A stretch of 64,000 nt of DNA from Xestospongia bergquistia (taxonomy: Eukaryota > Porifera > Demospongiae > Haplosclerida > Petrosiidae). This document shows, in pieces, positions 14,529-53,545 of this stretch (its first letter is position 1; every line of letters starts with the position of its first letter). A program made the translations under genes and the position numbers. The stretch is from contig OZ014418.1 of NCBI GenBank assembly GCA_963965975.1, positions 1,066,501-1,130,500 on the forward strand. The letters run 5' to 3'. The notes below the pieces were generated by a model that made no database searches, had not been told where the DNA came from, and saw nothing but the letters and a program-made list of their open reading frames with translations.

Positions 14529-15599
14529 TCATATATCTTCATCTGTACCATTCTCAGAGGAAATAATGTATGTTGTTGAAACAGTTGTAGTACCATATAC
14601 AGTAAGATGATCTCCTGGATCCATCAGATGCCTTGTAGCTACAGAGTCTTTACGGGTATTCTTTTTCTTTCCACGCCATTCTGTTAGTGTTCTTTTAATG
14701 CTCTCCTTGCTAAACGTTCTTAACACAACAAGATAGCCTAATGTAAAAAGACCAGCAAATAATCCCCAACTTGGAGAGAGTAAAGCTTGAGCAAAATACA
14801 TCCATCTTGTAAAATGACCTCCTGTAACACCTATATAAATACGATTTGTAACTCCAAAAGCACTAAGAAATTGACGTACAATGGGATAAGCAATCAAAGG
14901 TGAAGCTTGTTTGAGAGCTTTACGATAATTTATAGATGTGGTGCTTTGACGAGCTCTTTTACATAGTAAAATGGAAATAATAATTAGACCAATATTATTA
15001 AGGATTAGTATTAAAATAAATTCTCCATACCACAAAGTATAAACTTCAATCAGTCCTTCTTTATTTAAGGAGCAGTCATCATTATAAAGTCTTATCCAAC
15101 ACCAAAGACCGGATAGACCATAGTTGTGATGAATAAAAGGAATCCAGGAAACTATAGCTGGAAAAATCCAAGGAAAGAGAAGATAAAAAGGCTCCAATTT
15201 AGCTATACTTTCATAACATCTGTCAAAAAGGACCAGATTGGTCAAATGTAAAGTGACCATTAAAATCGAAAGGAACATCACCCACAATGAGTATTCAAGA
15301 AAGAAACCTTCAACCTCACACCATTTATCATATTCTCCCTTCCAGTAGTTTTGCCACAGTGCAGATATTGTAACTATCACAGCAACACAATAAGATAGTG
15401 CAGAAACTAACATGTACAAGATTAGTCTGTGTGTCAATAGTTTGAACATACGAAAGAAAGTCATCAAGGCAACAACAATTACACACACAATACCAGAGAC
15501 AGTTCCACTGCTGATGTACGTGATCAATGCTGGTAACAGATCGTGTTTTATTGAAAGATTACAAAATAAATCATCTGATTGATTGCTGTAGGCAGACAT
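14529..15599 (-). CDS. cAMP-receptor-like 7TM GPCR, group A copy 1
   Basis: Intronless, 356 aa. Seven hydrophobic segments at about 25-48, 58-80, 98-124, 139-159, 187-212, 231-252 and 268-293. The extracellular N-terminus has two N-glycosylation sequons (NQS, NLS) and no signal peptide. Cys94 at the top of TM3 and Cys167 in the second extracellular loop form the expected conserved disulphide. The loop motif YGLSGLWCWI matches the (G)xWCWI hallmark of the Dictyostelium cAMP-receptor (class E) and GPR157-like families, so I place it there; ligand and G protein are unknown. This is the copy nearest STIP1 and reads GLWCWI where nearly all siblings have GPWCWI. The tail ends YGTTTVSTTY followed by acidic residues, typical of group A. 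Confidence 0.85.
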   Translation of the reverse strand: MSAYSNQSDDLFCNLSIKHDLLPALITYISSGTVSGIVCVIVVALMTFFRMFKLLTHRLILYMLVSALSYCVAVIVTISALWQNYWKGEYDKWCEVEGFFLEYSLWVMFLSILMVTLHLTNLVLFDRCYESIAKLEPFYLLFPWIFPAIVSWIPFIHHNYGLSGLWCWIRLYNDDCSLNKEGLIEVYTLWYGEFILILILNNIGLIIISILLCKRARQSTTSINYRKALKQASPLIAYPIVRQFLSAFGVTNRIYIGVTGGHFTRWMYFAQALLSPSWGLFAGLFTLGYLVVLRTFSKESIKRTLTEWRGKKKNTRKDSVATRHLMDPGDHLTVYGTTTVSTTYIISSENGTDEDI

Positions 15600-15749
15600 G
15601 TTGCTTCCCTCAAAGTGATCACTCCCACTTGCTTAAAAATTAACTTCACAACAAAAGAAACTAACTGAAACATGCTTAGCACATGAGTTATTATTGATAT
15701 TGTTTGTTAATGTGTAATTAGAACAACAGCCAAAGCAATTAATATTATC

Positions 15750-15945
15750 AAGAATGCCCTACAAATAATTCTCCATACCAAAAAGCATAAACCTCCAGGA
15801 ACAATCATCATTGTACAGCCTTATCCAGCACCATGGACCTGATATACAATAGTTATTATGAACAAAGGGTATCCAGACTACAGTTATTGCTGGAAAAATC
15901 CATGAGAAGTGGAGATAAAAGGTTCTGGTTTAGTGATGTTCAAAA
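15750..15945 (-). pseudogene. GPCR internal relic (loop 2 to TM5 region)
   Basis: Nucleotides match the TM4/ECL2/TM5 part of group B receptors (blocks coding WCWI, the Asn-Asp-Asp-Cys motif and the WIPF region) with internal deletions and no open frame. A near-identical relic lies at 21600-21790, each just downstream (in gene direction) of a group A gene, so the two were copied as part of one larger unit. Confidence 0.65.
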
Positions 15946-16053
15946 GATTATCTGAAATTAATTAAATTGTGTGGGTGTTCTACAAAAATTAGCACTATAA
16001 AATTATAACGTTATTATTAGAGAAAAAAATAATTACAGTTCTCTTTTAATATA

Positions 16054-17124
16054 TCACACATCCTCATCTGTACCACTCTCAGAGGGAATAGGATATGTTG
16101 TTGAAACAGTTGTAGTACCATACACAGTAAGATGATCTTCTGGATCAATCAGATGCTTTGTAACTGCAAAGTCTTCATGGATATCCTCTCTCTTTCCACA
16201 CCATTCTTTTAGTGTTGTTTTGATGTTCTTCTTGCTAAACTTTTTTAACACAACAAGATAGCCTAATGTAAAAAGAGCAGCAAACAATCCCGAACATGGA
16301 GAAAGTGCAGCTTGAACAAAATACATCCATCTTGTAAAATGACCTCCTGTAACACCTATATAAATACGATTAGCAATTGAAAAGGCACTAAGAGATTCCC
16401 GTACAATGGGATAAGCAATCAAAGGTGAAGCTTGTTTGAGAGCTTTACGATAATTCATAGATGTGGTATTTTTACAAGCTCTTTTACACAGTAAAATAGA
16501 CACAATAGTTAAGCCAATATTCATGAGGATTAGCCCAAAAATAAAATCTCCATACCACAAAGCATAAACTTCAATCAGTCCTTCTTTATTTAAGGAGCAG
16601 TCATCATTATAAAGTCTTATCCAACACCAAGGACCTGATAGACCATAGTTGTGATGAACAAAAGGGATCCAGGAAACTACAGCTGGAAAAATCCAAGGAA
16701 AGAGAAGATAGAAAGGCTCCAATTTAGCTATATTTTCATAACACTTGTCAAAAAGGACCAGATTGGTCAAATGTAAAGGGACAATTAAAATAGACAGGTA
16801 CATCACCCACAATGAGTATTCAAGAAAGAAACCTTCAACCACACACCATTTATCATATTCTCCCTTCCAGTAGTTTTGCCACAGTGCAGAGATTTTAACT
16901 ATCACAGCAATACAATATAATAAAGTAGAAACAAACATGTACAAGATTAGTCTGTGTGTCAATAGTTTGAACATACGAAAGAAAGTCATCAAGGCAACAA
17001 CAATTACACATGCAACACCAGAGACAGTCCCACTTCCAATGTATATAATCAATCCTGGTAACATATCATGCTTTATTGAAAGATTGCAAAAGATATCATC
17101 TGACTGATTGTTGTAGCCGGACAT
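16054..17124 (-). CDS. cAMP-receptor-like 7TM GPCR, group A copy 2
   Basis: Intronless, 356 aa, same length and layout as the 14529-15599 copy with scattered substitutions. Canonical loop motif GPWCWI, with the N-terminal NQS and NLS sequons retained. The third intracellular loop carries KRACKNTTSMNYRKALKQ, so the basic stretch that family members use near the G-protein face is intact. The C-tail ends YGTTTVSTTYPIPSESGTDEDV-like and contains several Ser/Thr next to acidic residues, plausible phosphorylation sites. Start MSGYNNQSDD is the group-A consensus start. No disabling change seen. Confidence 0.85.
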   Translation of the reverse strand: MSGYNNQSDDIFCNLSIKHDMLPGLIIYIGSGTVSGVACVIVVALMTFFRMFKLLTHRLILYMFVSTLLYCIAVIVKISALWQNYWKGEYDKWCVVEGFFLEYSLWVMYLSILIVPLHLTNLVLFDKCYENIAKLEPFYLLFPWIFPAVVSWIPFVHHNYGLSGPWCWIRLYNDDCSLNKEGLIEVYALWYGDFIFGLILMNIGLTIVSILLCKRACKNTTSMNYRKALKQASPLIAYPIVRESLSAFSIANRIYIGVTGGHFTRWMYFVQAALSPCSGLFAALFTLGYLVVLKKFSKKNIKTTLKEWCGKREDIHEDFAVTKHLIDPEDHLTVYGTTTVSTTYPIPSESGTDEDV

Positions 17125-18153: not shown

Positions 18154-19251
18154 TTAAGCCTGATCATATTCTCTCTCCACATCACTTTCGGATGTATAAG
18201 AATAACCAGTTGGATTTGTCACTGTAATTCCATATTGAGTAACATGATCATCTACATCAATAAGAATTTTATATTCTCCTCCATCAGAATTAGACCGTTT
18301 CCTTATTTTCTTACAGAAACACTTACAGCAAAAGATTTGTCTTGCACTATTTCTAAATTCTGAAAGTGTTACAAGATAAAATACAGTAAACAGACCTGCA
18401 AAGAACCCACAACTAGAAGAAGCAAAAGCATGCACGTGGAACAACCAGCCAATATAGTTTCCATTTAGTAATGATTGATGAATACGGATTCCAAGAGAAA
18501 TCCAACTAAGCACCTGAAATATAAAAGGAAATCCAACCAGTGGCAGAGTTTGTTTGAGAGCTTTACGATAATCCAAAGAAATAGTGTTATGACAAGATCT
18601 TTTACATAGTATAACTAGTACAACAGCCAAAGCAATATTATTGAGAATCTGCCCTAAACATAATTCTCCATACCACAAACCATAAACCTCAATCATTCCT
18701 TCCTTATTCCAGGAACAATCATCATTGTAAAGCCTTATCCAGCACCATGGACCTGATATACCATAATTGTTATGAACAAAGGGTATCCAGGCAGTAGTTA
18801 TTAATGGAAAAATCCATGGGAAGAGAAGATAAAAAGGTTCTAGTTTAGTGATATTCTGATAGCATCTGTCAAAAAGAACCATAATTGTCAAATGTACAGT
18901 GACCATTAGTGTAGATAGGAACATAACCCATTGTGAATATTGAACAATAAATCCTTCAGTTATACACCAATTGTAATGCTCTCTTTTCCAGAAGTTCATC
19001 CACAGTTCAGAGATCTGAAATATATTAGCAAGACAGAAAAATAGAGAAGCCATAAGCAGATACAGGATTATTCTGTTTGTTAGTAATTTGTACATATGAA
19101 ATAAGACAATCAAGACAATGCCAGGTATGCACATCAATGCAGAGACAACTCTAGTACTACTGTAGGTTATCAGAATTGGTAGGAAATCATTCTTAATAGA
19201 ATGATTACAAAAGATATCATCTGAATCATTAGACATCACACTTACATACAA
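18154..19251 (-). CDS. cAMP-receptor-like 7TM GPCR, group B, divergent copy
   Basis: Intronless, 365 aa from the first Met. The Met at 19236 (MSNDSDD) is the one conserved across group B and is the more likely start. Seven TM segments, GPWCWI loop and N-terminal NHS sequon are present. It differs from the other B genes in TM2-TM3 (ELWMNFWKREHYNWC) and in a Cys-rich juxtamembrane tail (CCKCFCKK) that could be palmitoylated. Its relics, not those of the commoner B type, litter the array (C-terminal fragments near 31200, 33450, 48050, 50300 and 52800). It is therefore probably the surviving member of an older subgroup. Confidence 0.83.
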   Translation of the reverse strand: MYVSVMSNDSDDIFCNHSIKNDFLPILITYSSTRVVSALMCIPGIVLIVLFHMYKLLTNRIILYLLMASLFFCLANIFQISELWMNFWKREHYNWCITEGFIVQYSQWVMFLSTLMVTVHLTIMVLFDRCYQNITKLEPFYLLFPWIFPLITTAWIPFVHNNYGISGPWCWIRLYNDDCSWNKEGMIEVYGLWYGELCLGQILNNIALAVVLVILCKRSCHNTISLDYRKALKQTLPLVGFPFIFQVLSWISLGIRIHQSLLNGNYIGWLFHVHAFASSSCGFFAGLFTVFYLVTLSEFRNSARQIFCCKCFCKKIRKRSNSDGGEYKILIDVDDHVTQYGITVTNPTGYSYTSESDVEREYDQA

Positions 19252-21012: not shown

Positions 21013-21339
21013 TTAATGAACACACACTAAAAGGACCTTAAGACAACCTGGAATATTTTCAGAACTGGAGCAAATTCATAATAAATAGCAGTGCCTAATA
21101 AGGCCTGGCAGGAAATAAACATTATTACTCAATGAGTTCCATTGCTTAAACTTATAAATATAAAAAATAAACAGCAAAATATGAAAACATATCACATGAC
21201 AATCACTTAATTCACACCTTCCGCTGAAGTGTGTCAAGTAACCTGGACTCTAAAGACAAGTTGCTATATATGATTAAAGTGAAGTGGTATTTAAGCTCAG
21301 AGTGATGTTGCATAGATTGTATTAAATAGAGGCAGGTCA

Positions 21340-21475
21340 ACAACAAATACACACACAATACCAGAGACAGTTCCACTGCTGATGTACGTGATCAATGCTG
21401 GTAACAGATCATGCTTTATTAAAAGATTACAAAATAAATCATCTGACTGATTGTTGAAGCCAGACATGTTGCATT
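21340..21475 (-). pseudogene. Group A GPCR 5' fragment
   Basis: Covers the start codon through the beginning of TM1 of a group A receptor (MSGFNNQSDD, then HDLLPALITYI and the Ser-Gly-Thr-Val block). It stops abruptly in TM1. No downstream body follows in frame. Confidence 0.7.
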
Positions 21476-21599
21476 CTTCACAGTGATCACTCCCTCTGCT
21501 TAAGTTGACTGTACTAACAGAATAATAATACCAATTATTAACTGAAACATTATTAATTTATAAACCACTTAATTAATCCATTCAGTATAGAGCATGTGC

Positions 21600-21790
21600 C
21601 ATGTTTATTATCAAGAATGCCCTACAAATAATTCTCCATACCACAAAGCAAAAACCCAAATCACATTCCAGGAACAATCATCATTCTACAGCCTTATCCA
21701 TCACCATAGACCTGACATACTATAGTTGTTATGAACAAAAGGTATCCATGTAATTATTAATTGAAAAATCCATGGGAAGAGAAAATGGAA
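21600..21790 (-). pseudogene. GPCR internal relic, second copy of the 15750 relic
   Basis: Same TM5/ECL2/TM4 nucleotide blocks as 15750-15945 with different small deletions. No open frame. Confidence 0.6.
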
Positions 21791-21926
21791 AAATCTTTAC
21801 CTGAAACTAGATACTTTCTGCATTCTTACCATGTGAACTGAAATTAATTAAATTGTGCGGGTGTTCTACAAAATTATAATGTTATTATTACAGAAAAACA
21901 ACCAACTATAGTTCTCTTTTAATATA

Positions 21927-23039
21927 TCACACATCTTCATCTATACCACTCTCAGAGGGAATAGGATATGTTGTTGAAACAGTTGTAGTACCATATACAG
22001 TAAGATGATCTTCTGGATCAATCAGATGCTTTGTAACTGCAAAGTCTTTAATGGTATTCTCTTTCTTTCCACACCATTCTGTTAGTGTTCTTTTGATGCT
22101 CTCCTTGCTAAAACTTTTTAATATAGCAAGATAGCCTAATGTAAAAAGGCCAGCAAACAATCCCCAACTTGGAGAAAGTAAAGCTTGAACAACATATATC
22201 CATCTTGTAAAATGACCTCCTGTGACACCTGTATAAATACGATTTGTAATTGAAAAAGCACTAAGAAATTGGCGTACAATGGGATAAGCAATCAAAGGTG
22301 AAGCTTGTTTGAGAGCTTTACAATAATTCATAGATGTGGTGCTTTGACAAGCTCTTTTACATAGCAAAATGGACACTATAATTAGACCAATATTATTGAA
22401 GATTAGCCCTAAAATAAAGTCTCCATACCACAAAGCATAAACTTCAATCAGTCCTTCTTTATTTAAGGAGCAGTCATCATTATAAAGTCTTATCCAACAC
22501 CAAGGACCAGATAGACCATAGTTGTGATGAACAAAAGGAATCCAGGTAATTATGGCCGGAAAAATCCAAGGAAAGAGAAGATAAAAAGGCTCCAATTTAG
22601 CTATACTTTCATGATATCTTTCAAAAAGGACCAGATTGGTCAAATGTAAAGTGACCATTAAAATCGAAAGGAACATCACCCACAATGAGTATTCAAGAAA
22701 GAAACCTTCAACCTCACACCATTTATTGTATTCTCCCTTCCAGTAGTTTTGCCACAGTGCAGATATTGTAACTATCACAGCAACACAATAAGATAGTGCA
22801 GAAACTAACATGTACAAGATTAGTCTGTGTGTCAATAGTTTGAACATACGAAAGAAAGTCATCAAGGCAACAACAATTACACACACAGTACCAGAGACAG
22901 TTCCACTGCTGATGTACGCGATCAATGCTGGTAACAGATCATGCTTTATTGAAAGATTACAAAATAAATCATCTGACTGATTGTTGAAGCCAGACATGTT
23001 TCTTTCTTCGATGCGATCCTCCCCCTGCTTTTCTAGCAA
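21927..23039 (-). CDS. cAMP-receptor-like 7TM GPCR, group A copy 3
   Basis: Intronless, 370 aa from the first Met. The Met at 22997 (MSGFNNQSDD, giving 356 aa) aligns with the starts of the other two group A genes and is preferred; the 14-residue extension is charged and has no counterpart. TM1-TM7, GPWCWI and both N-terminal sequons are intact. The body is closest to 14529-15599 (VEGFFLEYSLWVMFL, TITGIYTGVTGG-type TM6/7 region). One notable change is YCKALKQ for YRKALKQ in intracellular loop 3. It is embedded among B-group relics, 4.8 kb from the other A genes. Confidence 0.84.
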   Translation of the reverse strand: MLEKQGEDRIEERNMSGFNNQSDDLFCNLSIKHDLLPALIAYISSGTVSGTVCVIVVALMTFFRMFKLLTHRLILYMLVSALSYCVAVIVTISALWQNYWKGEYNKWCEVEGFFLEYSLWVMFLSILMVTLHLTNLVLFERYHESIAKLEPFYLLFPWIFPAIITWIPFVHHNYGLSGPWCWIRLYNDDCSLNKEGLIEVYALWYGDFILGLIFNNIGLIIVSILLCKRACQSTTSMNYCKALKQASPLIAYPIVRQFLSAFSITNRIYTGVTGGHFTRWIYVVQALLSPSWGLFAGLFTLGYLAILKSFSKESIKRTLTEWCGKKENTIKDFAVTKHLIDPEDHLTVYGTTTVSTTYPIPSESGIDEDV

Positions 23040-23875
23040 ACTGCTATACTAACAGTCAATTATTAATATTAAACATTATTAACTAATAAACCACTTAATT
23101 AATCCAAGAACATGTGCCACGTGTATTATTGATACAGTTATTTATTGTTCATTAATTCATTGTCTACACTTGAGTCAAAGTACATATATAAATTGAAAAT
23201 ACTGGGAATGTTAAATATATATGTACTCAGTACTATAAAGGGGTATATCAGCTAGTGATTTATATAAGAGAAATCCAACTAAGCACCTGAAATATAAAAG
23301 GAAATCCAACCAGTGGCAGAGTTTGTTTGAGAGCTTTACAATAATCCAAAGAAATAATGTTATGACAAGATCTTTTACATAGTATAACTAGTACAATAGC
23401 CAAAGCAATATTATTGAGAATCTGCCCTAAACATAATTCTCCATACCACAAACCATTCCTTATTCCAGGAACAATCATCATTGTACAACCTTATCCAGCA
23501 CCATGGACCTGATATACCATAATTGTTATGAACAAAGGGTATCCATGCAATAGTTATTAATGGAAAAATCCATGGGAAGAGAAGATAAAAAGGTTCTAGT
23601 TTAGTGATATTCTGATAGCATCTGTCAAAAAGAACCATAATTGTCAAATGTACAGTGACCATTAGTGTAGATAGGAACATAACCCATTGTGAATATTGAA
23701 CAAGAAATCCGTCAATTATACACCAATTGTAATGCTCTCTTTTCCAGAAGTTAATTCATCCACAGTTGAGAGATCTGAAATATATTAGCAAGACACACTG
23801 TAAAAATTTATTAGTTGATTTAACTAATACATGGTTACACAGGCTACATATGCAAAATGTATAAACATAACACTA

Positions 23876-24067
23876 CCGTATATCGGGAAACTTTCGCGTT
23901 ACAAAAGTTTCATGTAAAAAATTTACGAGGTAACTCGAACATAAAAGGCGTGTACCAAATTTATTAACTCTATTTATTTCATTGTGTAATAATGTTCGTG
24001 TAATTTATTTTCGTACACCGTCCAATGTTCGAATTTTTTTTAACAACGAAACTTTCCCGATCTACGG
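23876..24067. mobile_element. 192-bp TA-flanked miniature element
   Basis: Inverted ends CCGTATATCGGGAAACTTTCG and CGAAACTTTCCCGATCTACGG, flanked on both sides by TA (23874-23875, 24068-24069). It is less AT-rich at the ends than its surroundings. The TA duplication suggests a Tc1/mariner-like mobiliser. Confidence 0.75.
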
Positions 24068-24082
24068 TATTTTGATTACTAA

Positions 24083-24319
24083 CACTGTAAAAATTAATAT
24101 GTCATTTTAACAACTAATTTGTATGTTACATGGATGGACTACTATGGAATATAGAATTCTTGTGAATAACTCACTGTATAATTTGCTGTTATGTTATACT
24201 TTTATATAGTAACAAATTATACAATTGAGTAACTCACATAATAAATTCTAAACTTCATAGTAATTTGTCCATGTAAAGTACAAATTAGTTGTTAAAATAA
24301 AATATTAATTTTTCCAGTG
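24083..24319. mobile_element. 237-bp CACTG foldback element
   Basis: About 40-bp inverted ends: CACTGTAAAAATTAATATGT and its near complement ending TTAATTTTTCCAGTG, with TTTTAACAACTAATTTGTA arms further in. The ends resemble those of the outer 23796-24479 element, so it may be a relative inserted into it or an internal duplication. Confidence 0.65.
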
Positions 24320-24665
24320 AATGTATTATGAAATTAATGGTTATGTGTAGCTACATAAGCAGTATAGTACATTAGCAATGAAAACAATGTTGTGATTACT
24401 TTTTTCAACAAAAATAATTTTGCAATTGCAATGTATACAACCAAAGAATGGTTGAATTAACCTATCAATTTTTATAATGTAGAGAAGTCACAAGCAGATG
24501 AGATACAGGATTATTTTGTTTGTTAGTAATTTGTACATACGAAATAAGACAATCAAGACAATGCCAGGTATGCACATCAATGCAGAGACTACTGTAGGTT
24601 ATCAGAATTGGTAGGAAATCATTCTTAATAGAATGATTGCAAAAGATATCTATCATCTGAATTAT

Positions 24666-25347: not shown

Positions 25348-26385
25348 TTAGTTGATTTGTTTATCATATTCTCTCTCCACACGGCTTTCAGACACAAAAG
25401 GATAACTGGTTGGATCTGTCACAGTGATACCATATTGAGTAAAATGATCTTCTCCAATAAGTGGCTCGTATTCAGTGATATCAGTGTTTATTACTTTCTT
25501 CTTTCTCTTAACACAGCACTTACAAAAGACTCGTGTGAACTTCATTACATTATATCTAAATTCTGAAAGTATTATTAGATAAACTATAGCAAAAAGTCCT
25601 GCAAAGAACCCCCAACTAGCAGCTGTAACAGCATGACCAAAAAACATCCATTTCATATACTTTCCACTTATTGAAGCTTGGTATATGCGATTTGCAAGTG
25701 CAATCCAACTGAGAACCTGATACATCACAGGAAAACCAATCAAGGGCAGAGTTTGTTTGAGTGCTTTACGATAATCCAAAGAAGTGTTATTGTAACAAGA
25801 TCGTTTGCACAAAGTAACTAGTATAACAGTCAAAGCAATATTATTAAGGATTAGCCCTAAAAATAGTTCACCATACCACATTGTATAAACCTCAATCATT
25901 CCTTCCTTATTCCAGGAACAGTCATCATTGTAAAGCTTTATCCAACACCATGGACCTGATACACCATAGTTGTTATGAACAAAAGGTATCCAGGCAATTA
26001 TAGCTGGAAATATCCAAGGAAAGAGGAGATAGAAAGGCTCTAGTTTAGTCATACTCTTATAGTATTTGGCAAAGAGGACCATATTTGTCAAATGTAAAGT
26101 GACCATAAGAGTAGATAGAAGCGTAACCCACACTGAATATTCAACAAAGAATCCTTCAGCGACACATGATTGATTGTTTTCTCCCTTCCAGTAGTTTTGC
26201 CACAGTGCAGACATTTGAATCAATGTAGCAAGACAGAAAGATAGAATAGCCACAAGTAAATACAGGATTGTTCTGTTTGTTAGTAATTTGTACATACAAA
26301 ATATGACAATCAAGGCAATAGCAAGTATACACATCAATGCAGAGACAGCTCCAGTACTACTAAAGGTCCTATAGCAATAATACAA
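25348..26385 (-). CDS. Group B 7TM GPCR with replaced N-terminus
   Basis: 345-aa ORF. TM1 (from FSSTGAVSALMC) to the C-tail aligns fully with other B genes: GPWCWI, VCKRSCYNNTS-type loop 3, and a tail ending PFVSESRVEREYDK. The usual extracellular N-terminus (SNDSDDIFCNHSIKNDFLPVL) is absent. Homology stops just before TM1, and upstream there is unrelated sequence giving only MYYCYRT. Either a 5' deletion has destroyed the gene or a new start is used. The body has no stop or frameshift, so loss would be recent. It also lacks the class-1/class-2 upstream block. Confidence 0.6.
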   Translation of the reverse strand: MYYCYRTFSSTGAVSALMCILAIALIVIFCMYKLLTNRTILYLLVAILSFCLATLIQMSALWQNYWKGENNQSCVAEGFFVEYSVWVTLLSTLMVTLHLTNMVLFAKYYKSMTKLEPFYLLFPWIFPAIIAWIPFVHNNYGVSGPWCWIKLYNDDCSWNKEGMIEVYTMWYGELFLGLILNNIALTVILVTLCKRSCYNNTSLDYRKALKQTLPLIGFPVMYQVLSWIALANRIYQASISGKYMKWMFFGHAVTAASWGFFAGLFAIVYLIILSEFRYNVMKFTRVFCKCCVKRKKKVINTDITEYEPLIGEDHFTQYGITVTDPTSYPFVSESRVEREYDKQIN

Positions 26386-42444: not shown

Positions 42445-42764
42445 ATTCTTTTAAATTACAAATGTTTTGACAAAAGTAGTCCCTTGTTGGAAATCAGGTC
42501 ACAATTAGTAGTGATTATAGCATATGAATTATAAGTCTGTGTGATCTCTGTTTGAAGTTTTTAAATGAAACCTTCTTATAATCTCACTACATGTAGTCAA
42601 AGATCAATACATTTGATTTCTGGAAGATTACTACAATGCAAACTTTAAACTAAAATGTATGGAGGATCATGATCAATTTGATATAGAAAAAAATATTTCA
42701 AGGTATTTTAATTAGCAACACATATACAACTAAATTACAATGATGAACAAGTCATACTAGACAG

Positions 42765-43844
42765 TGTCTGATTAATTATTGTCAGATTCATTTATAGAAT
42801 ATGTGAATAGTTAGAGTTCCAATCTCGTTCAAATATAAGTTTTAATTGTTCCTGAATAGTATTATTATAATTAGGCATTGTTGTATTGGTGGTTTGATTG
42901 ACAATACAACTAACACCAGCTGTATTTATAAAATAATCACCAGACCAATTTGAAGTGCCTAATAACATAAAATATAAGAAATTTAGTTGTAGAGCACAGT
43001 AAAGCTGAGGTATACTAAACAATATACTATTAAAATAGTAGTATATTTGTGAATGACCAATATAAGCAGCATTATCTGTGACCATGTACTTATTATGATT
43101 GACTCTTGAGTAAGGAATTGACTTGTTGGATAGATGAGGTACAATAAAAAAACCTCTAGAAATAAAGTAAATATAAGACTAAGTTCTAGCATTCTGTATA
43201 AATTCTAACCATTTCAATACTGCCATTAGAAGGTCCTGTAATATTCCAGGACCCTAAACTTTTCAAGAAATCAGACATATCACAAGGGGTATATTCCCAA
43301 TAACTTCTTACGAGACGAACATTTATTCCCTTCTCATAGGCAACTTTACATAGGGCATCATCAATCACAGGCCAATACCTAATAATACAATTTGAGTCAA
43401 AATTATGCAAAGAATATTTCAGAGGCTAACAATGACTGGTTATTATGTTGATATGATTATAATGGTCCATTGTCAATTTCAGTCACACAAATGGAACCAA
43501 GATCTGGAACCAGTCTCATAGCATTATCTGAGTATGTGGAATGTGCTTAATTGTTATCAACACATCGGACTTTAGGGTTTAGGTTCTTGAATAGTTGTAT
43601 AGCTACAAAATAGTCTGGTTCCTGATTTAGATTCCATTAGTGCAACTAAAACTAATGGCATAACATATGATTCATAATAATATAGATTATGAATGGTTAT
43701 TGGATTATATCCTTGTACATGTGACTATGTAGCTATTGATGCTCTTGTGACTATATCATTATATGAATGCTTTTATTATGACTTCATACAGTTATGGATA
43801 ATCTATAAACATTTAATTTTAAAGTCAACACACAAACACATGAT
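42765..43844 (-). pseudogene. Truncated PLD3/4-like 3' end, copy 3
   Basis: Exon 9 (42792-42958) and exon 7 (about 43211-43379) are open. Exon 8 carries one extra T in the RFF run, shifting its frame ahead of NHNKYMVTD. Exons 1-6 are absent. The Gln-Pro block after exon 8 is the retained intron. Junction to the receptor 5' fragment at about 43844, as in the other copies. Intron-6 remnant lacks the hAT insertions and so shows the empty target. Confidence 0.85.
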
Positions 43845-44584
43845 GCACTACTGTAGGTTATCAGAATTGGTAGGAAATCATTCTTAATAGAATGATTGCA
43901 AAATATATCATCTGAATTATTGGATGACATACTGATTAATGAACACACACTAAAAGGAGCTTAAGACAACCTGGAATATTTTCAGGACTGGAGCAAATTC
44001 ATAATAAATAGCAGTGCCTAATAAGGCCTGGCAGGAAATACACATTATTGCTCAATGATTTCCATTGCTTAAACTTATAAACATAAAAAAATAAACTGCA
44101 AAATATGAAAACATATCACACGACAATCACTTAATTCGCACCTTTCAGCTGAAGTGTGTCAAGTAGCCAGGACTCTAAAGACAAGTTGTTATATTATATG
44201 ATTAAAGTGAAGTGGTATTTAAGTTCAGAGTGATTTGCATGGATTGTATCAAATAGAGGCAGGTCCTTGATCTTTTAATGTCTTAATAGTAAGGCATTAT
44301 TGATTCTAAGAAAACTACAATTGCTTTGACCTATATACATTCATAATTCAAGTGGCTATATCTTCAGTACATCTGTTAATATATCTCAACACTGACTACA
44401 ATTAATATTAATTCTGTCAAGTTTAAATTCTAACTTTAGGTAGCACTGTAGCAGAATCAAAATAACAAATATTAATCATAATAACGAAATGGAGTGAGAT
44501 AAAACATAATTATAATAATACTGTGATCTAATGTACAGTGTATATAGTCTCAGGTTCTTCCAGGCCATGTACAGGACTACTTTG
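43845..44584. other. GPCR 5' fragment and array spacer
   Basis: 43845-43935 encodes the N-terminus of a group B receptor up to TM1 and stops. The rest repeats the 38626-39278 spacer almost base for base. Confidence 0.65.
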
Positions 44585-45680
44585 TTAGTTGATTTCTTTA
44601 TCATATTCTCTCTCCACAACGCTTTCAGACACAAAAGGATAACTGGTTGGATCTGTCACAGTGATACCATATTGAGTAAAATGATCTTCTCCAATAAGTG
44701 GCTCATGTTCAGTGATATCAGTGTTTATTACTTTCTTCTTTCTCTTAACACAGCATTTACAAAAGACTTGCACAAATTTCATTACATTATTCCTGAATTC
44801 TGAAAGTGTTATTAAATAAACTATAGTAAAAAGTCCAGCAAAGAACCCCCAACTGGCAGCTGTAATGGCATGAATGAAAAACATCCATTTAACATACCTT
44901 CCACTTATTGCTGATTGGTATATGCGGTTTGCAAGAACAATCCAACTAAGCACCTGATATATCAATGGAAAGCCAATTAATGGTAGAGCCTGTTTGAGTG
45001 CTTTACGATAATCCAAAGAAGTGTTATTGTAACAAGATCGTTTGCACAAAGTAACTAGCACAACAACCAAAGCAATATTATTGAGGATTAGCCCTAAAAA
45101 TAGTTCACCATACACTGTTCCATAAACCTCTATCATCCCTTCCTTATTCCAAGAGCAGTCATCATTGTATAGTCTAATAAAACACCATGGACCTGATATA
45201 CCATAGTTGTTATGAACAAAAGGTATCCAGGCAATTATAGCTGGAAATATCCAAGGAAAGAGGAGATATAAAGGCTCTAGTTTAGTCATACTCTCATAGT
45301 ATTTGGCAAAGAGGACCATATTTGTCAAATGTAAAGTGACCACGTACAAGAGTAGATAGAAGCATAACCCACACTGAATATTCAACAAAGAATCCTTCAG
45401 CCACACACCATTGATAGTTTTCTCCCTTCCAGTAGTTTTGCCACAATGCAGACATTTGAATCAACGTAGCAAGACAGAAAGATAAAGCAGCCACAAGTAG
45501 ATACAGGATTATTCTGTTTGTTAATAATTTGTACATACGAAATAAGACAATCAAGGCAATAGCAAGTATACACATCAATGCAGAGACAGCTCCAGTACTA
45601 CTGAAGGCTATCAGTACTGGTAGGAAATCATTCTTAATAGAATGATTACAAAAGATATCTTCTGGTTTCTTAGACAACAT
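44585..45680 (-). pseudogene. Group B GPCR with a 4-nt insertion in TM3
   Basis: N-terminal part 45680-45294 (start MLSKKPEDIF, a divergent N-terminus lacking the NSS sequon) and C-terminal part 45406-44585 are in different frames. Compared with siblings, four extra bases (GTAC) lie at about 45342 in the sequence coding for the TLVVTLHLT segment of TM3. Everything else is intact (GPWCFIRL loop, full tail), so this is a single-event inactivation and may be polymorphic. Confidence 0.85.
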
Positions 45681-46404
45681 ATTTGTATAGAGATATATTT
45701 ATATATACGCTGCCACAATAGATTTCTGATTGCTTTCAATTTCTGAATGAAGAACACGACCAGGAAGAAATATGTTGAGATCAAATGGCAAGAGAACACA
45801 CGACCAAGTCAAAGTATATAGAGAGTAGAGTGTGGTTATATTGTGGTTAATTAAATTCCCACCCATATACAACGTTGCATTGTATCGATAATTTACTCTA
45901 TTTAAAGGCCAGGAATGAATATAAATAAATTACAATGATAAACAAGTCATACTAGTATTAATTGATTTTAAACATGATCATAATATTCTCTCTCCAAATT
46001 ACTCTCAGATGTATAATAATAACTGGTTGGATTTGTAACTATACTCTACAATTCAAAATGTCCACAACTATAGAAGAAATAACAGCATACACATAGAACA
46101 ATGAAAAGTACTAAAGTACAGAACCTTACTAGCCATGTGTACAGTTATATAGTATGACACTATGTTTGTCACATCTTTGCTGTCATTATTTCACTCATAT
46201 TAGTTATGACAAGAATTTTATTATGACAGTAGCACATATATCTTATATATAGTGTAGTCTGGGATAAAATAACCCTTATCAGTAATATAGTGGAACTAGC
46301 TAAGACATAATTATAATAATTATAATAATATTGTGATCTAATGTATAGCTATGTATCTCAGGTTCTTCAAATTCCATATTCCAGGCCATGTACAGGATTA
46401 AGTT
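45681..46404. other. Class-2 upstream block, short GPCR C-terminal relic, spacer
   Basis: 45965-46040 is a short C-terminal receptor relic broken within the tail. 46040-46404 repeats the 31481-31829 spacer. No gene. Confidence 0.6.
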
Positions 46405-47514
46405 TTAGTTAATTCGTTCATCATATTCTCTCTCCACATTGCTTTCAGACACAAAAGGATAACTGGTAGGAGCTGTCACAGTGGTCCCATATCGAGTAAA
46501 ATGATCTGAGTCTGGACCAATAATGTGTTCATATTCGGTAACATCACTGTTCTCTATTTTTTTCTTTCTCTTAACACAGCACTTACAAAAGACTCGGATG
46601 AATTTCATCACATTATATCTAAATTCTGAAAGTGCTATTAGGTAAATGATAGTAAAAAGTCCTGCGAAGAACCCCCAACTGGCAGCTGTAACAGCATGAC
46701 CAAAAAACATCAATTTCATATACTTTCCACTTATTGAAGCTTGGTATATGCGATTTCCAAGTGCAATCCAACTGAGAACCTGATACATCACTGGAAACCC
46801 AATCAAGGGCAGAGTTTGTTTGAGTGCTTTACGATAATCCAAAGAAGTGTTATTGTAACAAGATCGTTTGCACAAAGTAACTAATACAACAGTCAAAGCA
46901 ATATTATTAAGGATTAGCCCAAGAAATAGTTCACCATACCATGTTGCATAAACCTCTATCATTCCTTCCTTATTCCAGGAACAGTCATTATTGTAAAGCT
47001 TTATCCAACACCATGGACCTGATACACCATAGTTGTTATGAACAAAGGGTATCCAGGCAATTATAGCTGGAAATATCCAAGGAAAGAGGAGATAGAAAGG
47101 CTCTAGTTTAGTCATACTCTCATAGTATTTGGCAAAGAGGACCATATTTGTCAGATGTAAAGTGACCATAAGAGTAGATAGAAGCATAACCCACACTGAA
47201 TATTCAACAAAGAATCCTTCAGCCACACACCATTGATAGTTTTCTCCCTTCCAGTAGTTTTGCCACAATGCAGACATTTGAATCAACGTAGCAAAACAGA
47301 AAGATAAAACAGCCACAAGTAGATACAGGATTATTCTGTTTGTTAGTAATTTATACATACGAAATAAGACAATCAAGGCAATAGCAAGTATACACATCAA
47401 TGCAGAGACAGCTCCAGTACTACTGAAGGTTAATAGGACTGGTAGGAAATCATTCTTAATAGAATGATTACAAAAGATATCATCTGAATCATTAGACATC
47501 ACACTTACATACAA
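46405..47514 (-). CDS. Group B 7TM GPCR, class-1 promoter copy
   Basis: 369 aa from MYVSV; conserved start MSNDSDD at 47499 gives 364 aa. Differs from 31830-32927 at only a few positions (for example YNNDCSW for YNDDCSW in ECL2, ATWYGELF, tail TRYGTTVTAPTS). All signature residues are present and there is no disabling change. A long (TA)n run of about 26 bp lies at 47541-47570 in the class-1 upstream block. Flanks on both sides are shared with the 31830 gene, so the whole unit was duplicated, not the gene alone. Confidence 0.87.
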   Translation of the reverse strand: MYVSVMSNDSDDIFCNHSIKNDFLPVLLTFSSTGAVSALMCILAIALIVLFRMYKLLTNRIILYLLVAVLSFCFATLIQMSALWQNYWKGENYQWCVAEGFFVEYSVWVMLLSTLMVTLHLTNMVLFAKYYESMTKLEPFYLLFPWIFPAIIAWIPFVHNNYGVSGPWCWIKLYNNDCSWNKEGMIEVYATWYGELFLGLILNNIALTVVLVTLCKRSCYNNTSLDYRKALKQTLPLIGFPVMYQVLSWIALGNRIYQASISGKYMKLMFFGHAVTAASWGFFAGLFTIIYLIALSEFRYNVMKFIRVFCKCCVKRKKKIENSDVTEYEHIIGPDSDHFTRYGTTVTAPTSYPFVSESNVEREYDERIN

Positions 47515-47541
47515 TTGCTGAGATTATACACTATACCACAG

Positions 47542-47573
<32 letters not shown>

Positions 47574-48836
47574 GCTCTCACAAATGAAAAAGTAGAAGAG
47601 AATAATAAAGTGAAGAGATCAAGTGACTTATAAGATCACATGACTGTATAACTAATAGGTCAAAGTACTTTCAGTATGATCTAATTATAGTAGTGATTAT
47701 AGTATATCAACTAAGTCATATCTGTGTGTTCTCTGTTTGAGGTTTTCTTCTGTGCTATATCTAATACAAAATGAAACCTTCTTATAATCTCATTACATGT
47801 AGTCAAAGAGCAATACATTTGATTTCTGGAAGATTACTACATTGCAAACTTCAAACTAAAATGTCTAGAGGATCGTGATCAATTTGATATAGAAAAAAGA
47901 TTTCAAGGCATTTTAATTAGCAGCATATATATATACAAATAAATTAAATGATGAACAAGTCATACTAGACAGTGTTTGATTAATTATTAAGAATAACTGG
48001 TTAAATTTGTCACCGTAATTCCATATCAAGTAAAATGATAGTCTATACCAGTAACTATTCTCCTCCATGCAGAAACTAGATCGTTTCCTCTTTTTCTTAC
48101 AGCAACACTTACAATAAGAGATTTGCTTTACAAGATATAAAATATAGTAAACAGACTTACAAAGAACTCACAACTATCTTCAAATTATTTACATCAATTG
48201 TATTTTAATTAAATGATAAATATCTCCCTCAATATTCCTTGCATGGACACTGTTTTTTAAGCCAATCAAGGCTTTTAAGTGTTTTATTTACAATATATAC
48301 CATGGTGTTATAGATGTTCATAGATAATAAAGTTTTATCCAATAAATTGTCACTATAATTATGTACACTATAAGATATGCTACTGTCTTAACTATTTCCT
48401 TTATTCTATTATCTAAGTAAACCAACACTATGAACTTTATGGTATGAGTAGTAAACATATATAATGTTCATAGATAAGTATATGATGTTTACATCCAATA
48501 AAGTAGTATGCATTTCTATATGTACAATATAACAATATATACTGAACTTTATTTAATGGGTACATTCTATATCTATGCATTATTATGTACATTAATTTGG
48601 GGGAGTCAGCACCTGTCATAGCTTTTCTGTCATAATAAATTTACTCTTACATATCAATTATGATAAGAATTCTATCAAGACAGTAGCATAAGTTTTAATG
48701 TAGTCATACTTTATCGGATAAACAATCATGATATAATATATATATAATGTAATTATAATAATGCTGTGACCTATTAAAAGTACACTCTATATATGTAGTC
48801 TCAGATTCTTCCTTATTCTGTGTGCATGATTGTTTT
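47515..48836. other. Class-1 block, GPCR relic, spacer
   Basis: A C-terminal receptor relic lies at about 47985-48180. The remainder matches 33600-34415 in order. The 48437-48619 minus ORF is short and unsupported. Confidence 0.6.
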
Positions 48837-49931
48837 TTAGTTCACTTGTTCATCATATTCTCTCTCCACATTGCTTTCAGACACCAAAGGATAACTGGTT
48901 GGATCTGTTAAAGTGATACCATATTGAGTAAAATGATCTTCTGAGTCTACACCAATAAGAGGTTCGTGGTCAGTGTTTATTACTTTCTTCTTTCTCTTAA
49001 CACAGCATTTACAAAAGACTTGCACAAATTTCATTACATTATTCCTGAATTCTGAAAGTGTTATTAGATAAACTATAGTAAAAAGTCCCGCAAAGAAACC
49101 CCAACTGGCAGCTGTAACGGCATGGGTGAAAAACATCCATTTAACATATTTTCCACTTGTTGCTGATTGGTATATGCGGTTTGCAAGAGCAATCCAAGTA
49201 AGCACCTGATATATTATTGGAAAGCCAATTAATGGTAGAGTTTGTTTAAGTGCTTTACGATAATCCAAAGAAGTGTTATTGTAACAAGATCGTTTGCACA
49301 AAGTAACTAGTACAACAGCTAGAGCAATATTATTAAGAATTTGCCCTAAAAATAGTTCACCATACAATGTTGCATAAACCTCTATCATTCCTTCCTTATT
49401 CCACGAGCAGTCGTCATTGTATAGCCTAATAAAACACCATGCACCTGATATACCATAGTTGTTATGAACAAGTGGTATCCAGGCAATTATTAATGGCAAA
49501 ATCCATGGGAAGAAAAGATAGAAAGGTTCTAGTTTAGTGATATTCTGATAGCATCTGTCAAAGAGGACCATAATTGTCAAATGTAGAGTAACCATTAGAG
49601 TAGAAAATAGCATAACCAAGTCTGAGTACTCATTAAAAAGAGCTTCAGCCACACACCATTTGTAGTGCTCTCTTTTCCAATAGTTCTGCCAAAGGGCAAG
49701 GATCAGGAACATATTAGCAAGACAAAAAGATAAAGCAGCCACAAGTAGATACAGGATTATTCTGTTTGTCAGTGATTTGTACATACGAAATATGACAATC
49801 AAGACAATAGCAAGTATACAAACAAATGCAGAGACAGCTGCAGTACTACTACAGGCTATCAGTACTGGAAAGAAATCATTTTTAATAGAACGATTACAAA
49901 AGATATCTTCTGAATTATTATTAGACACCAT
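48837..49931 (-). CDS. Group B 7TM GPCR, CFIRL sub-branch
   Basis: Intronless, 364 aa, start MVSNNNSEDIF with NNS and NRS sequons, class-2 upstream block. ECL2 reads GAWCFIRLYNDDC. TM4/ECL2 has WIPLVHNN where others have WIPFVHNN. The TM2 exit has NYWKREHYKWC and TM3 begins EALFNEYSDLVML, the most divergent TM3 in the B group, which may affect ligand contacts. The tail is shortened by a three-residue deletion (INTDHEPLI) and ends ESNVEREYDEQVN. Intact. Confidence 0.86.
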   Translation of the reverse strand: MVSNNNSEDIFCNRSIKNDFFPVLIACSSTAAVSAFVCILAIVLIVIFRMYKSLTNRIILYLLVAALSFCLANMFLILALWQNYWKREHYKWCVAEALFNEYSDLVMLFSTLMVTLHLTIMVLFDRCYQNITKLEPFYLFFPWILPLIIAWIPLVHNNYGISGAWCFIRLYNDDCSWNKEGMIEVYATLYGELFLGQILNNIALAVVLVTLCKRSCYNNTSLDYRKALKQTLPLIGFPIIYQVLTWIALANRIYQSATSGKYVKWMFFTHAVTAASWGFFAGLFTIVYLITLSEFRNNVMKFVQVFCKCCVKRKKKVINTDHEPLIGVDSEDHFTQYGITLTDPTSYPLVSESNVEREYDEQVN

Positions 49932-50864
49932 ATTTGTATAGAGTCTACAGAGATATATTTATACGCTGACACAGTGGGTTTCTGATTGCTTTCAATTTCT
50001 GAGTGAAGAACACGAGAGAAATAAGTTGAGATCAAATGGAAAATTAAAGAGAACACACGACTACACAGTCCAAGTCAAAGTGTATATATAGAGAGAGGAA
50101 TGTGCGGAGGTTTCAATTATGCTCAGTTAAATTGTGGTTAATTAAATGCCCACCTATGCAAGTTGTAAGGTTCTATGCTCAATACAATTACTTTATTTAA
50201 AGGCCAGGAATAACAAGTAATAAATTACAGTAGTAAACAAATCATGCTAGTATCGATTTTAAGTGTGATCATATTATTCTCTCTCCGCTTCACTTTCAGA
50301 TAACTGAGATGTATAACAATAACTGGTTAAATTTGTCACTGTAATTCCGGTCTATATCTGTAAGTGTTCTCCTCCATCAGAAACTAGATCATTTTCTTAT
50401 ATAGCAAGATTTACAACAAATTATTTACCTTACATTTCTAAATTCTGAAAGTGTTCCAATATAAAATATAGTAAACAACTCTACAATTCAAAATGTCCAC
50501 AACTATAGAAGAAATAACAGCATACACATAGAACAATGAAAAGTACTAAAGTACAGAACCTTACTAGTCGTGTGTACAGCTATATAGTTCACGCTATATT
50601 TGTCACATTTTTGCTACCATAATTTCACTCATATCAGTTATGATAGGAGTTTTATTATAACAGTAACGTATGTTATATATAGTGTAGTCTGGGATAAAAT
50701 AACTCTTATCAGTAAAACAGTGCATTGGAGTAGGAACAGTAATATAGTGAAACTAGCTAAGACATTAATTATATTAATTATAATAATATTGTGATCTAAT
50801 GTATATAGCTATGTAGTCTCAGGTTTGTCGAATCCATATTCCAGGCCATGTAGAGGATTAAGTT
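49932..50864. other. Class-2 block, GPCR C-terminal relic, spacer
   Basis: 50235-50450 is a C-terminal relic of the 18154-type receptor with extra internal bases. 50450-50864 is the third copy of the 31481 spacer. No gene. Confidence 0.6.
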
Positions 50865-52274
50865 TTAGTTCATTCGTTCTTCATATTCTCTCTCCACATT
50901 GCTTTTAGACACAAAAGGATAACTGGTTAGATCTGTTACAGTGATACCATATTCATAGGTGTAGCAACAGGGGGGGGGGGGGGCACAGGGGGCACGCCCC
51001 CCCCCCCCCCCAATATTTTTGGTATATTGTGAGATGGTTTCACAATCAGCTGATTTAGATTAGACACTTTTCAATCCCTATCCTCATAATACAATTTACA
51101 GCTGTAGATGCACATTTTATGTAAAAACATTTTAAAAATTTTTGTCAGTGTAAACGACAGGAGGTTTATTTTGGTTGTTATTGAAATATTTCACTGTTAA
51201 ACTAAACAATGTTAAAATGTTACATATGTGCCCCCCGAATGACAAAATTGTTCCTACACCTATGATATTGAGTAAAATAATCTGTGTCTGGACCATGCAA
51301 TAATGTGTTCATATTCGGTAACATCACTGTTCTCTATTTTTTTCTTACTCTTAACACAGCACTTACAAAAGTCTCGGATGAATTTTATTATATTATATCT
51401 AAATTCTGAAAGTACTATTAGATAAACTATAGCAAAAAGTCCTGCAAAGAACCCCCAACTAGCAGCTGTAACAGCATGACCAAAAAACATCCATTTCATA
51501 TACTTTCCACTTATTGAAGCTTGGTATATGTGATTTGCAAGTGCAATCCAACTGAGAATCTGATACATTACTAGAAAACCAATCAAGGGCAGAGTTTGTT
51601 TGAGTGCTTTACAATAAACCAAAGAAGTGGTATTGTAACAAGATCGTTTGCACAAAGTAACTAGTACAACAGCTAAAGCAATATTATTAAGGATTAGCCC
51701 AATAAATAGTTCACCATACCATGTTGTATAAACCTCAATCATTCCTTCCTTATTCCAGGAACAGTCATCATTGTAAAGCTTTATCCAACACCATGGACCT
51801 GATACACCATAGTTGTTATGAACAAAAGGTATCCAGGCAATTATAGCTGGAAATATCCAAGGAAAGAGGAGATATAAAGGCTCTAGTTTAGTCATACTCT
51901 CATAGTATTTGGCAAAGAGGACCATATTTGTCAAATGTAAAGTGACCACAAGAGTAGATAGAAGCATAACCCACACTGAATATCCAACAAAGAAACCTTC
52001 AGTGACACACCATTGATAGTTTTCTCCCTTCCAGTATTTTTGCCACAATGCAGACAATTGAATCAACGTAGCAAGACAGAAAGATAAAGCAGCCAAAGCA
52101 GATACAGGATTATCTGTTTGTTAATGATTTGTACATACAAAATATGACAATCAAGACAATAGCAAGTGTGCAAATAAACACAGAGACAGCTCCAGTACTA
52201 CTAAAGGCTATCAGTACTGGTAAAAAATCGTTCTTAATAGAATGATTACAAAAGATATCTGAATCATTAGACAT
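50865..52274 (-). pseudogene. Group B GPCR broken by a transposon and small deletions
   Basis: Start region 52274 (MSNDSD type, missing one codon of the Asp-Asp pair) to the TM1-TM2 loop is in one frame. Small deletions near 52095-52120 (lost bases in the TNRIILYLLVAA segment) shift it, leaving an open 278-codon body (52096-51260) from TM2 to the tail. The tail is then cut by a 311-bp element inserted at 50954-51264, after which the final codons (50948-50865) continue. GPWCWI is intact. Not functional as it stands. Confidence 0.88.
50954..51264. mobile_element. 311-bp inverted-repeat element inserted in a GPCR tail
   Basis: Ends CATAGGTGTAGCAACAGGGG and (complement) CATAGGTGTAGGAACAATTT. Flanked by a 5-bp direct repeat ATATT (50949-50953, 51265-51269), and the uninterrupted target is visible in sibling genes (ACCATATTGAG). 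It contains a poly-G tract followed shortly by a poly-C tract. The ends resemble those of the 71-bp element at 17729-17799, so they may be one family. Confidence 0.82.
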
Positions 52275-53125
52275 CACACTTACATACAATTACTGAGATT
52301 ATACACTATACCACAGTATATTTTTGGACACTCAAAAATGAAAAAGCAGAAGAGAATAACAAAGTGAGGAGATCAAGTGACTTATAAGATCACATGACTA
52401 TATAAAAACTAATAGGTCAAAGTACTTTCAGTATGATCTAATTAGTAGTGATTATAGTATATCAACTAAGTCATATCTGTGTGTTATCTGTTTGAGGTTT
52501 TCTTCAGTGGTATGCATACTATATCTAATACACAGTGAAACCTTTTTATAATCTCATTACATGTAGTCAAAGAACAACACATTTGATTTCTGGCATATTA
52601 CTACAATGAAAACTTTAAAATAAAATGTCTAGAGGATCATGATCAATTTGATATAGAAAAAAGATTCCAAGGTATTTTAATTAGCAGCATATATACAAAT
52701 AAATTAAATGATGAACAAGTCATACTAGACAATGTTTATTAAGAATAACTGATTAAATTTGTCACCGCAATTCCATATCAAGTAAAATGATAGTCTATAT
52801 CAGTAAGTATTCTCCTCTATCAGAACTAGATCGTTTCCTCTTTTCTAACAGCAACACTTACAATAAGAGATTTGCTTTACAAGATATAAAATATAGTAAA
52901 CAGACTTACAAAGAACTCACAACTATCTTACAAGTCATATTATTTACATCAATGTATTTTAATTAAATGATAAATGTCTCACTCCACATTCCTCGCATGC
53001 ACACTTTTTTTAATGAGGTTCTAATTCAGTGCAATCATACTATATTATAAGTAAAATCATATACACAGAACAACCAATCAATATAGATTCCATTTAGTGA
53101 TGCTTGAAATTGATAAATGCAGTTT
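52275..53125. other. Class-1 block and GPCR relics of the 18154 type
   Basis: Relics at about 52740-52930 (C-tail) and 53040-53125 (TM5-TM6 boundary) match the pair at 33395-33890. The second relic runs directly into the truncated receptor below without a gap. Confidence 0.6.
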
Positions 53126-53545
53126 TCAAGGCTCTAGTTTAGTCATACTCTCATAGTATTTAGCAAAGAGGACCATATTTGTCAAATGTAAAGTGACCAT
53201 AAGAGTAGATAGAAGCATAACCCACACCGAATATTGAACAAAGAATCCTTCAGCCACACACCATTGATAGTTTTCTCCCTTCCAGTAGTTTTGCCACAAT
53301 GCAGACATTTGAATCAACGTAGCAAAACAGAAAGGTAAAGCACCCACAAGTAGATACAGGATTATTCTGTTTGTTAGTAATTTATACATACGAAATAAGA
53401 CAATCAAGGCAATAGCAAGTATACACATCAATGCAGAGACAGCTCCAGTACTACTAAAGGCTATCAGTACTGGTAGGAAATCATTCTTAATAGAATGATT
53501 ACAAAAGATATCATCTGAATCATTATACATCACACTTACATGCAA
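53126..53545 (-). pseudogene. Group B GPCR truncated after TM3
   Basis: 139 codons from MHVSV (conserved start position reads MYNDSDD: the usual MSN Ser is changed to Tyr) through TM1-TM3, ending KLEP, where TM4 should begin. The sequence then joins abruptly to another receptor relic in the same strand. TM4-TM7 are missing, so it is a deletion pseudogene. It is the copy adjacent to the intact PLD gene. Class-1 upstream block present (TA run at 53576-53592). Confidence 0.85.

Follow-up and report, generated by a model that had tools for sequence, protein, structure and literature searches.

The 64,000-nucleotide (nt) stretch of the Xestospongia bergquistia genome analyzed here (contig OZ014418.1, positions 1,066,501 to 1,130,500; hereafter the window) carries, on its minus strand between 14529 and 53539, a tandem array of genes for seven-transmembrane (7TM) G-protein-coupled receptors (GPCRs). 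Ten full-length, single-exon open reading frames (ORFs) of 356-364 amino acids (aa) lie there among broken copies and older relics. The ratio of nonsynonymous to synonymous rates (dN/dS) stayed below 1 in each of the 55 pairs among the 11 long ORFs (range 0.27-0.79), and homology to 7TM GPCRs was detected with the family profile, which matched a PDB chain from a class B GPCR (E 2.3e-5). The array is probably a sponge-lineage tandem expansion of intronless class-E-like 7TM receptors, with unequal exchange between copies and purifying selection on the intact ones.

An earlier note on this DNA, made from the letters alone, had described a ~39-kb receptor array on one strand. This was confirmed by tblastn with, as queries, the 13 receptor ORFs in the window that reach 150 aa (all on the minus strand, 11 of them at least 328 aa): the merged matches gave 27 places on the minus strand, spanning 14517-53539, and none on the plus strand of the window. 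The eleven long ORFs counted in that note were recovered at the 328-aa length, but only ten are full length, the start region being missing from ORF 25348 (328 aa). Five further copies are broken, namely 29772, 39279, 44585 and 51260 (near full length) and 52742 (~800 nt). The six broken copies of the note are reached if 25348 is included, in which case it cannot double as an intact ORF. The many relics were found again by tblastn and block comparison as older remains besides the genes and damaged copies, many being pieces of an N-terminus or a tail. Across the 16 copies that were aligned, overall DNA identity ranged from 60.2 to 98.3%. Because the closest two still differ by 1.7%, an assembly artifact through exact repetition was ruled out. 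Introns concealed within the coding part were also ruled out, the whole 7TM protein lying in one frame in ten copies; the genes are intronless, as the note had claimed, in their coding part, whereas untranslated parts may carry introns. The array is flanked on one side by STIP1/HOP-like exons (11243-11527 and 13979-14263, by matches to TPR and STI1-HOP_DP) and on the other by PLD-like exons (54647-55096 and 57967-58338, with a sub-threshold match in 54254-54616). The array features are as follows, copies being named in the text by their first coordinate.

14529-15599, minus: intact receptor ORF, 356 aa, three-copy subclade
16054-17124, minus: intact receptor ORF, 356 aa, three-copy subclade
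18154-19236, minus: intact receptor ORF, 360 aa
20904-21001, minus: receptor N-terminus relic
21306-21900, minus: decayed receptor pieces, the region of the second extracellular loop (ECL2) and an N-terminus
21927-22997, minus: intact receptor ORF, 356 aa, three-copy subclade
23266-24659, minus: old relic in two pieces (23266-23807, 24474-24659), nearest ORF 18154
25348-26672, minus: copy with broken 5' end, 328-aa open frame left
27042-27581, minus: two 268-bp tandem copies (98%), extending into the 3' end of ORF 27504
27504-28589, minus: intact receptor ORF, 361 aa
29772-30851, minus: broken copy with two internal stops, nearest 27504 (91.4% DNA)
31188-31486, minus: relics, chiefly of the C-terminal tail
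31830-32924, minus: intact receptor ORF, 364 aa, 98.3% DNA identity to 46405
33698-33877, minus: relic
34416-35510, minus: intact receptor ORF, 364 aa, reference for residue numbering
37192-38477, no strand: insertion of a dispersed repeat, present as two identical 622-nt copies in inverted orientation
38474-38623, minus: receptor N-terminus relic adjoining the repeat insertion
39279-40369, minus: broken copy, frame lost, mosaic (5' part nearest 41019, 3' part nearest 44585)
40659-40760, minus: tail relic
41019-42113, minus: intact receptor ORF, 364 aa, above the Dicty_CAR cut-off (29.1 vs 21 bits)
43754-43936, minus: receptor N-terminus relic
44585-45680, minus: broken copy, frame lost, 244-aa open frame left
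45983-46039, minus: tail relic
46405-47499, minus: intact receptor ORF, 364 aa
47990-48175, minus: relic of the seventh transmembrane helix (TM7) and tail
48837-49931, minus: intact receptor ORF, 364 aa, above the Dicty_CAR cut-off (27.3 vs 21 bits)
50265-50963, minus: tail relics (50265-50478, 50868-50963)
51260-52290, minus: broken copy, 235-aa open frame left
52742-53539, minus: outermost copy, partial and broken, with 93-95% identity to three intact copies over its first 134 residues

Duplication in this array extended beyond the genes into their flanks, the 45 longest of 92 duplicated blocks measuring 1.1-3.3 kb at 74-96% identity. The block 31465-33659 is repeated as 46043-48257 (95.9% identity), and 34368-37191 plus 38478-40724 match 40963-43760 plus 43791-46036 at 90.1 and 93.2% identity. 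The latter pair may represent the tandem duplication of a ~5-kb two-gene block, one copy being split by the repeat at 37192-38477. Judged by block-wise similarity, copy 39279 is a mosaic: of its ten 120-column blocks, the first three were nearest 41019 (97-99%), the fourth nearest 48837 (98%) and the last six nearest 44585 (92-100%). An identical run of 182 polymorphic sites joins 39279 and 44585, a length reached in none of 1000 permutations. For 41019/44585 (P 0.014), and for 18154 paired with three copies (P 0.023-0.028), the signal of exchange was weaker; the remaining ten of the 15 listed pairs were at P of at least 0.06. The test was run on 13 of the 16 copies, all but 25348, 51260 and 52742. 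Duplicated 1-3 kb units, the two-gene block, the mosaic copy, six damaged copies and the relics together bear out the active birth and death that the earlier note had proposed. The array would grow and shrink via unequal exchange of units of a few kb, some mosaics would form between copies, and purifying selection would keep the intact ones.

The repeat at 37192-38477 consists of two inverted 622-nt copies (37192-37813 and 37856-38477) that are 100% identical and have 42 nt between them. Among the matches listed, this dispersed repeat was found 48 times, both copies and partial ones included, at 83-100% identity. The two copies probably represent an insertion of young paired mobile elements.

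To place the array in its family, the genome (146.5 Mb in 21 contigs) was searched with one window protein as query, and 107 places were found. About 66 of them are long open frames (at least 330 aa, no stop in the match), located on ten contigs; this count drew on 71 of the 107 places, short or fragmentary ones being omitted, and is the sum of 65 rows (25348 included) and 18154, whose match overran its own stop. Contig C14 holds an array of 15 such frames in ~30 kb on one strand, and C13 an array of nine in ~24 kb on both strands. A midpoint-rooted tree with long branches was built from 51 of the ~66 frames, the 15 omitted all coming from C14. In it the 11 window copies formed one group (100/100), and the C7, C2 and C15 copies were likewise grouped. 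The 7tm_2 (class B/adhesion-like) model gave 163 matches in the genome, mostly partial, clustered at G000:C4 1.98-2.27 Mb and on other contigs. Partial 7tm_2 matches are expected for multi-exon genes, and there seem to be other large GPCR expansions in this genome.

The long ORFs are under purifying selection. In five non-overlapping window pairs, the proportion of nonsynonymous differences (pN) was below that of synonymous ones (pS) over the whole protein (pN/pS 0.53, Fisher P 3e-14). All Fisher tests are given as per-test P from rounded Nei-Gojobori counts, and the window pairs are not strictly independent, 18154/27504 sharing one inner branch with 41019/48837. In a neutral simulation, ORFs stayed open in 10 of 2000 runs at 0.10 substitutions per site and in 1 of 2000 at 0.15. 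Under genomic drift, the copies would mostly be redundant and weakly constrained, no single one having its own role, and unequal exchange would have set the array size by accident. The breakage of six of the 16 aligned copies would fit this, as would a pN/pS that is just moderate in the window pairs and in nine pairs from other arrays (0.60), with recent pairs as high as 0.79 (window) and 1.04 (a C2 pair). The deficit of nonsynonymous differences in the five pairs, and the ten ORFs that are open at divergences that close neutral ones, argue the other way, and we regard drift as an improbable explanation.

Constraint was not spread evenly along the protein. Region boundaries were hand-set from hydropathy, and the helices of the predicted structure agree with them roughly. 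In the five window pairs, ECL2 had the lowest nonsynonymous rate (pN 0.036; odds vs the rest 0.36, P 4.3e-5), the third intracellular loop (ICL3) had the next lowest (odds 0.40, P 0.011), all three parts of the tail were fast (odds 1.83-2.56, P 0.019 to 1e-10), and the other 11 regions showed no difference at P 0.05. By pN/pS, ECL1 (0.24), ICL3 (0.29) and TM6 (0.31) all lie below ECL2 (0.35). In the nine pairs from other arrays, the tail was fast again (odds 2.18, P 2.6e-8), TM4 was slow (0.35, P 0.0012), TM1-ICL1 was slightly fast (1.43, P 0.042) and ECL2 was not significant (0.78, P 0.27). The slow ECL2 holds for the window array only and the fast tail for both pair sets; to explain the latter, it is enough that constraint is relaxed in a disordered tail. 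Between subclades, dN/dS was 0.73 for TM1, 0.66 for TM2, 0.32 for TM7 and 1.00 for ECL3. Averaged pair counts above 1, given without a test, were found for ICL2 (1.36 and 1.21) and, in the three-copy subclade, also for ICL3 (1.56), TM7 (1.02) and the tail (1.83). The earlier note had pointed to ECL2 and TM3 as places to look for rapid change between intact copies. Neither was accelerated, ECL2 having the lowest and the tail the highest nonsynonymous rate, which weakens the case for diversifying selection on them.

With ECL2 slow and the tail fast in this array, ligand diversification through ECL2 is disfavored. One endogenous signal for all copies, for example a cyclic nucleotide or a peptide for cell movement or aggregation as in Dictyostelium, could account for the slow ECL2 and ICL3 and for the fast tail that repeats in the other arrays; duplication would then alter dose, timing or tail-based desensitization and not ligand range. 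However, TM1, TM2, TM7 and ECL3, which may line the pocket, vary between copies, the slowness of ECL2 is not significant outside the window array, ~66 members are many for a single endogenous signal, and disordered regions commonly show fast tails anyway. We consider a single shared signal possible but rather unlikely.

The curated Dicty_CAR (PF05462) cut-off of 21 bits was exceeded by two of the seven window ORFs scanned (41019 and 48837), the 41019 match covering positions 19-299 of 305 in the model; the other five of the seven gave no Dicty_CAR match. The Dicty_CAR genome search found eight places above cut-off elsewhere in the genome. For Git3 (PF11710, cut-off 24.2 bits), 27504 scored 23.6 bits in the window scan and 25.6 in the genome search, where it was the sole place, and 14529 and 16054 scored 17.3 and 17.5 bits. 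These matches lend modest support to a class-E-like (Dicty_CAR/Git3) identity. The cAMP-receptor-like label of the earlier note stands as far as this affinity goes, but the Pfam matches are split, and GPR_Gpa2_C, a model of yeast glucose receptors, matches more members than Dicty_CAR, so that "cAMP receptor" is not to be taken as naming the ligand. The note had also taken WCWI as a hallmark of class E/cAR and GPR157-like receptors. By itself it does not mark class E, because WCW[I/V/L] is also the published ECL2 motif of GPR157, listed with LLxxLS[LVI]xD in TM2 and QGxxNxIxF in TM7 (PMC12716839).

The receptors might belong to GPR157 or to class B/adhesion and not to the cAR/Git3 group. WCW[I/V/L] occurs in ECL2 of 42 of the 51 family members, and the top PDB profile matches, like the rows of one Foldseek search, are class B receptors. 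Class B may just supply the nearest solved relatives, since no class E receptor was among the matches listed in the PDB sequence-profile search; a PDB search with one window protein gave no match. The fold-match lists likewise had no class E row, which says nothing on membership, and predicted structures with window paralogues alone as alignment gave no usable fold. The profile comparison suggested earlier, against Dicty_CAR, class B and GPR157, came out partly in favor of class E: Dicty_CAR matched nine of the 51 members at E 0.01, 7tm_1 and 7tm_2 (PF00002) matched none at that threshold, the GPR157 TM2 and TM7 motifs were each found in none of the 51, and the window was absent among the listed places of the genome 7tm_2 matches. 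A GPR157 or class B/adhesion origin is, in our view, quite improbable.

Several results nevertheless weigh against a class-E-like sponge expansion. Pfam support is weak and split (GPR_Gpa2_C in 14 of 51 members at E 0.01, Dicty_CAR in nine, Git3 in five), the Dicty_CAR genome search listed no place in the window, and 18154 and the reference ORF 34416 matched no Pfam model in the window scan. The predicted structures are poor (mean predicted local distance difference test score, pLDDT, 44.6 and 60.1) and their fold matches do not tell receptor families apart. Significant acceleration was seen in no extracellular region, unlike the expectation for ligand-diversifying receptors, and the many clustered partial 7tm_2 matches suggest that a tandem array of GPCRs is nothing exceptional here.

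In the protein anatomy, four residues are invariant in all 51 members: Cys91 (TM3) and Cys164 (ECL2), the cysteine pair already remarked on in the earlier note, together with Ile166 and Gly179. Cys10 is conserved in 49 of 51 and Cys173 in 50 of 51, and a second disulfide, from the N-terminus to ECL2, is therefore suggested as a predicted pairing. The WCWI or WCFI loop motif noted before was recovered as C[WF]I in each of the 11 window ORFs, with WCW[IVL] in nine, and a W precedes the C in all 11 in the alignment. The short NxS-rich N-termini were found too: an NxS sequon lies near the N-terminus in all ten window ORFs that have one, and within the first 25 residues in 45 of 51 family members. 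In the window alignment the N-terminus measures ~20 aa and the tail ~75 aa, and a low-confidence predicted structure places seven helices between residues 14 and 289. Tails are often, by eye, rich in Ser/Thr/Tyr with an acidic stretch at the end; the tail patterns tried matched 11, 5 and 26 of the 51 members, and tail phosphorylation and arrestin binding are putative.

We propose that each intact gene is expressed as a putative cell-surface GPCR with a short glycosylated N-terminus, which would be held to the extracellular face via two disulfides, Cys91-Cys164 and probably Cys10-Cys173. The ECL2 lid and the loop presumed to face the G protein would be shared between copies and slow to change, and the Ser/Thr-rich tail would diverge. 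The family would most likely sense chemical cues, either water-borne or released by cells.

Upstream of the genes, CTTTGAC was found 121-189 bp before the ATG in seven of the 11 window ORFs. Among the 40 other members it was found forward in one (at -592) and reverse in four, the upstream DNA being shorter than 400 bp for ten of the 40. This scarcity outside the window weakens its candidacy as a family-wide promoter element.

Other features were recorded in the window and the genome. The PLD-like exons at 54254-58792 (minus strand) form, by eye, two neighboring copies of a PLD3-like gene. A 34-bp minisatellite of ~25 copies lies at 12982-13845 between the STIP1/HOP-like exons, the GC skew is -0.35 across 12001-14000, and a 43-bp tandem repeat of 19 copies spans 2125-2918. 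A protein kinase exon (Pkinase match; MARK/Par-1-like by eye) was found at 3922-4176 on the minus strand. On the plus strand, 55901-57115 and 60568-61902 are paralogous single-frame ORFs of 404 and 444 aa without a confident Pfam match; 60688-61902 gave no PDB match, and the matches listed included three more paralogues, each located on the window's contig and one of them (98%) just beyond the window. COX1 was found on contig C21; its nine TGA codons all read as Trp in table 4, and tRNA genes for Arg, Ser, Asp and Cys lie nearby. On C6, stop-containing COX1 fragments near 3.15 and 3.20 Mb (G000:C6:3199389-3200360) are probably mitochondrial DNA inserted in the nuclear genome. On C13, seven of 47 homeodomain matches lie within ~40 kb, a candidate for the compact NK-type cluster characteristic of demosponges. 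As retention of mitochondrial tRNAs argues against a cnidarian, these features point to a probable demosponge. The sponge aggregation-factor domain PF18678 had no match in the genome, nor in any control genome.

Receptors of this kind are known from other organisms. cAMP receptors, first described in slime mold, occur across eukaryotes and were lost in vertebrates, according to a 2025 eLife survey (PMC12716839). In Amphimedon queenslandica, also a demosponge, 14 cAMP-like receptors of the Dicty_CAR type form their own cluster apart from Dictyostelium (Krishnan et al. 2014, PMC4302439), compared with ~66 long open frames here; the passages of that account that were consulted mention neither arrays of this family nor a lack of introns, decay or a pattern of selection. 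As sponge cAMP-like receptors were already known, the array is a larger, tandem, intronless case of a known kind. The likeness to the Dictyostelium receptors lies in the two window ORFs above the Dicty_CAR cut-off and in the short termini, whereas the sequence match is modest and is lacking in most family members. GPR157 shares the ECL2 motif but not the TM2 and TM7 motifs. Git3, the fungal glucose receptor family, is counted among fungus-specific receptors (PMC3251606); its model and GPR_Gpa2_C match some members, but within the window just 27504 nears the Git3 cut-off. Tandem clusters and intron loss are frequent in animal chemoreceptors, and vertebrate olfactory receptors, V1Rs, TAARs and T2Rs share single-exon coding sequences, tandem arrays and pseudogenes with the array, although they belong to other receptor families whose sensory function has been demonstrated (PMC11526382). 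In the literature covered (titles and abstract openings, most subscription journals lying outside this scope), no tandem intronless class-E array was described in a sponge.

The array reflects an ordinary birth-and-death process acting on a receptor kind that is known but has received little study. What makes it of interest is the size of the family in an animal without neurons, together with the combination of a slow ECL2 and a fast tail. Some ~66 intronless frames in a neuron-less animal would represent a separate origin of a large receptor repertoire, one tractable for ligand hunting. We tentatively suggest that this may be a sponge chemoreceptor repertoire derived from class-E-like receptors, with a shared ECL2 recognition surface clamped by two disulfides and paralogues that diversify mainly in the intracellular tail. 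If so, new copies would alter the response to a cue and not which cue is heard, a testable alternative to the usual chemoreceptor model.

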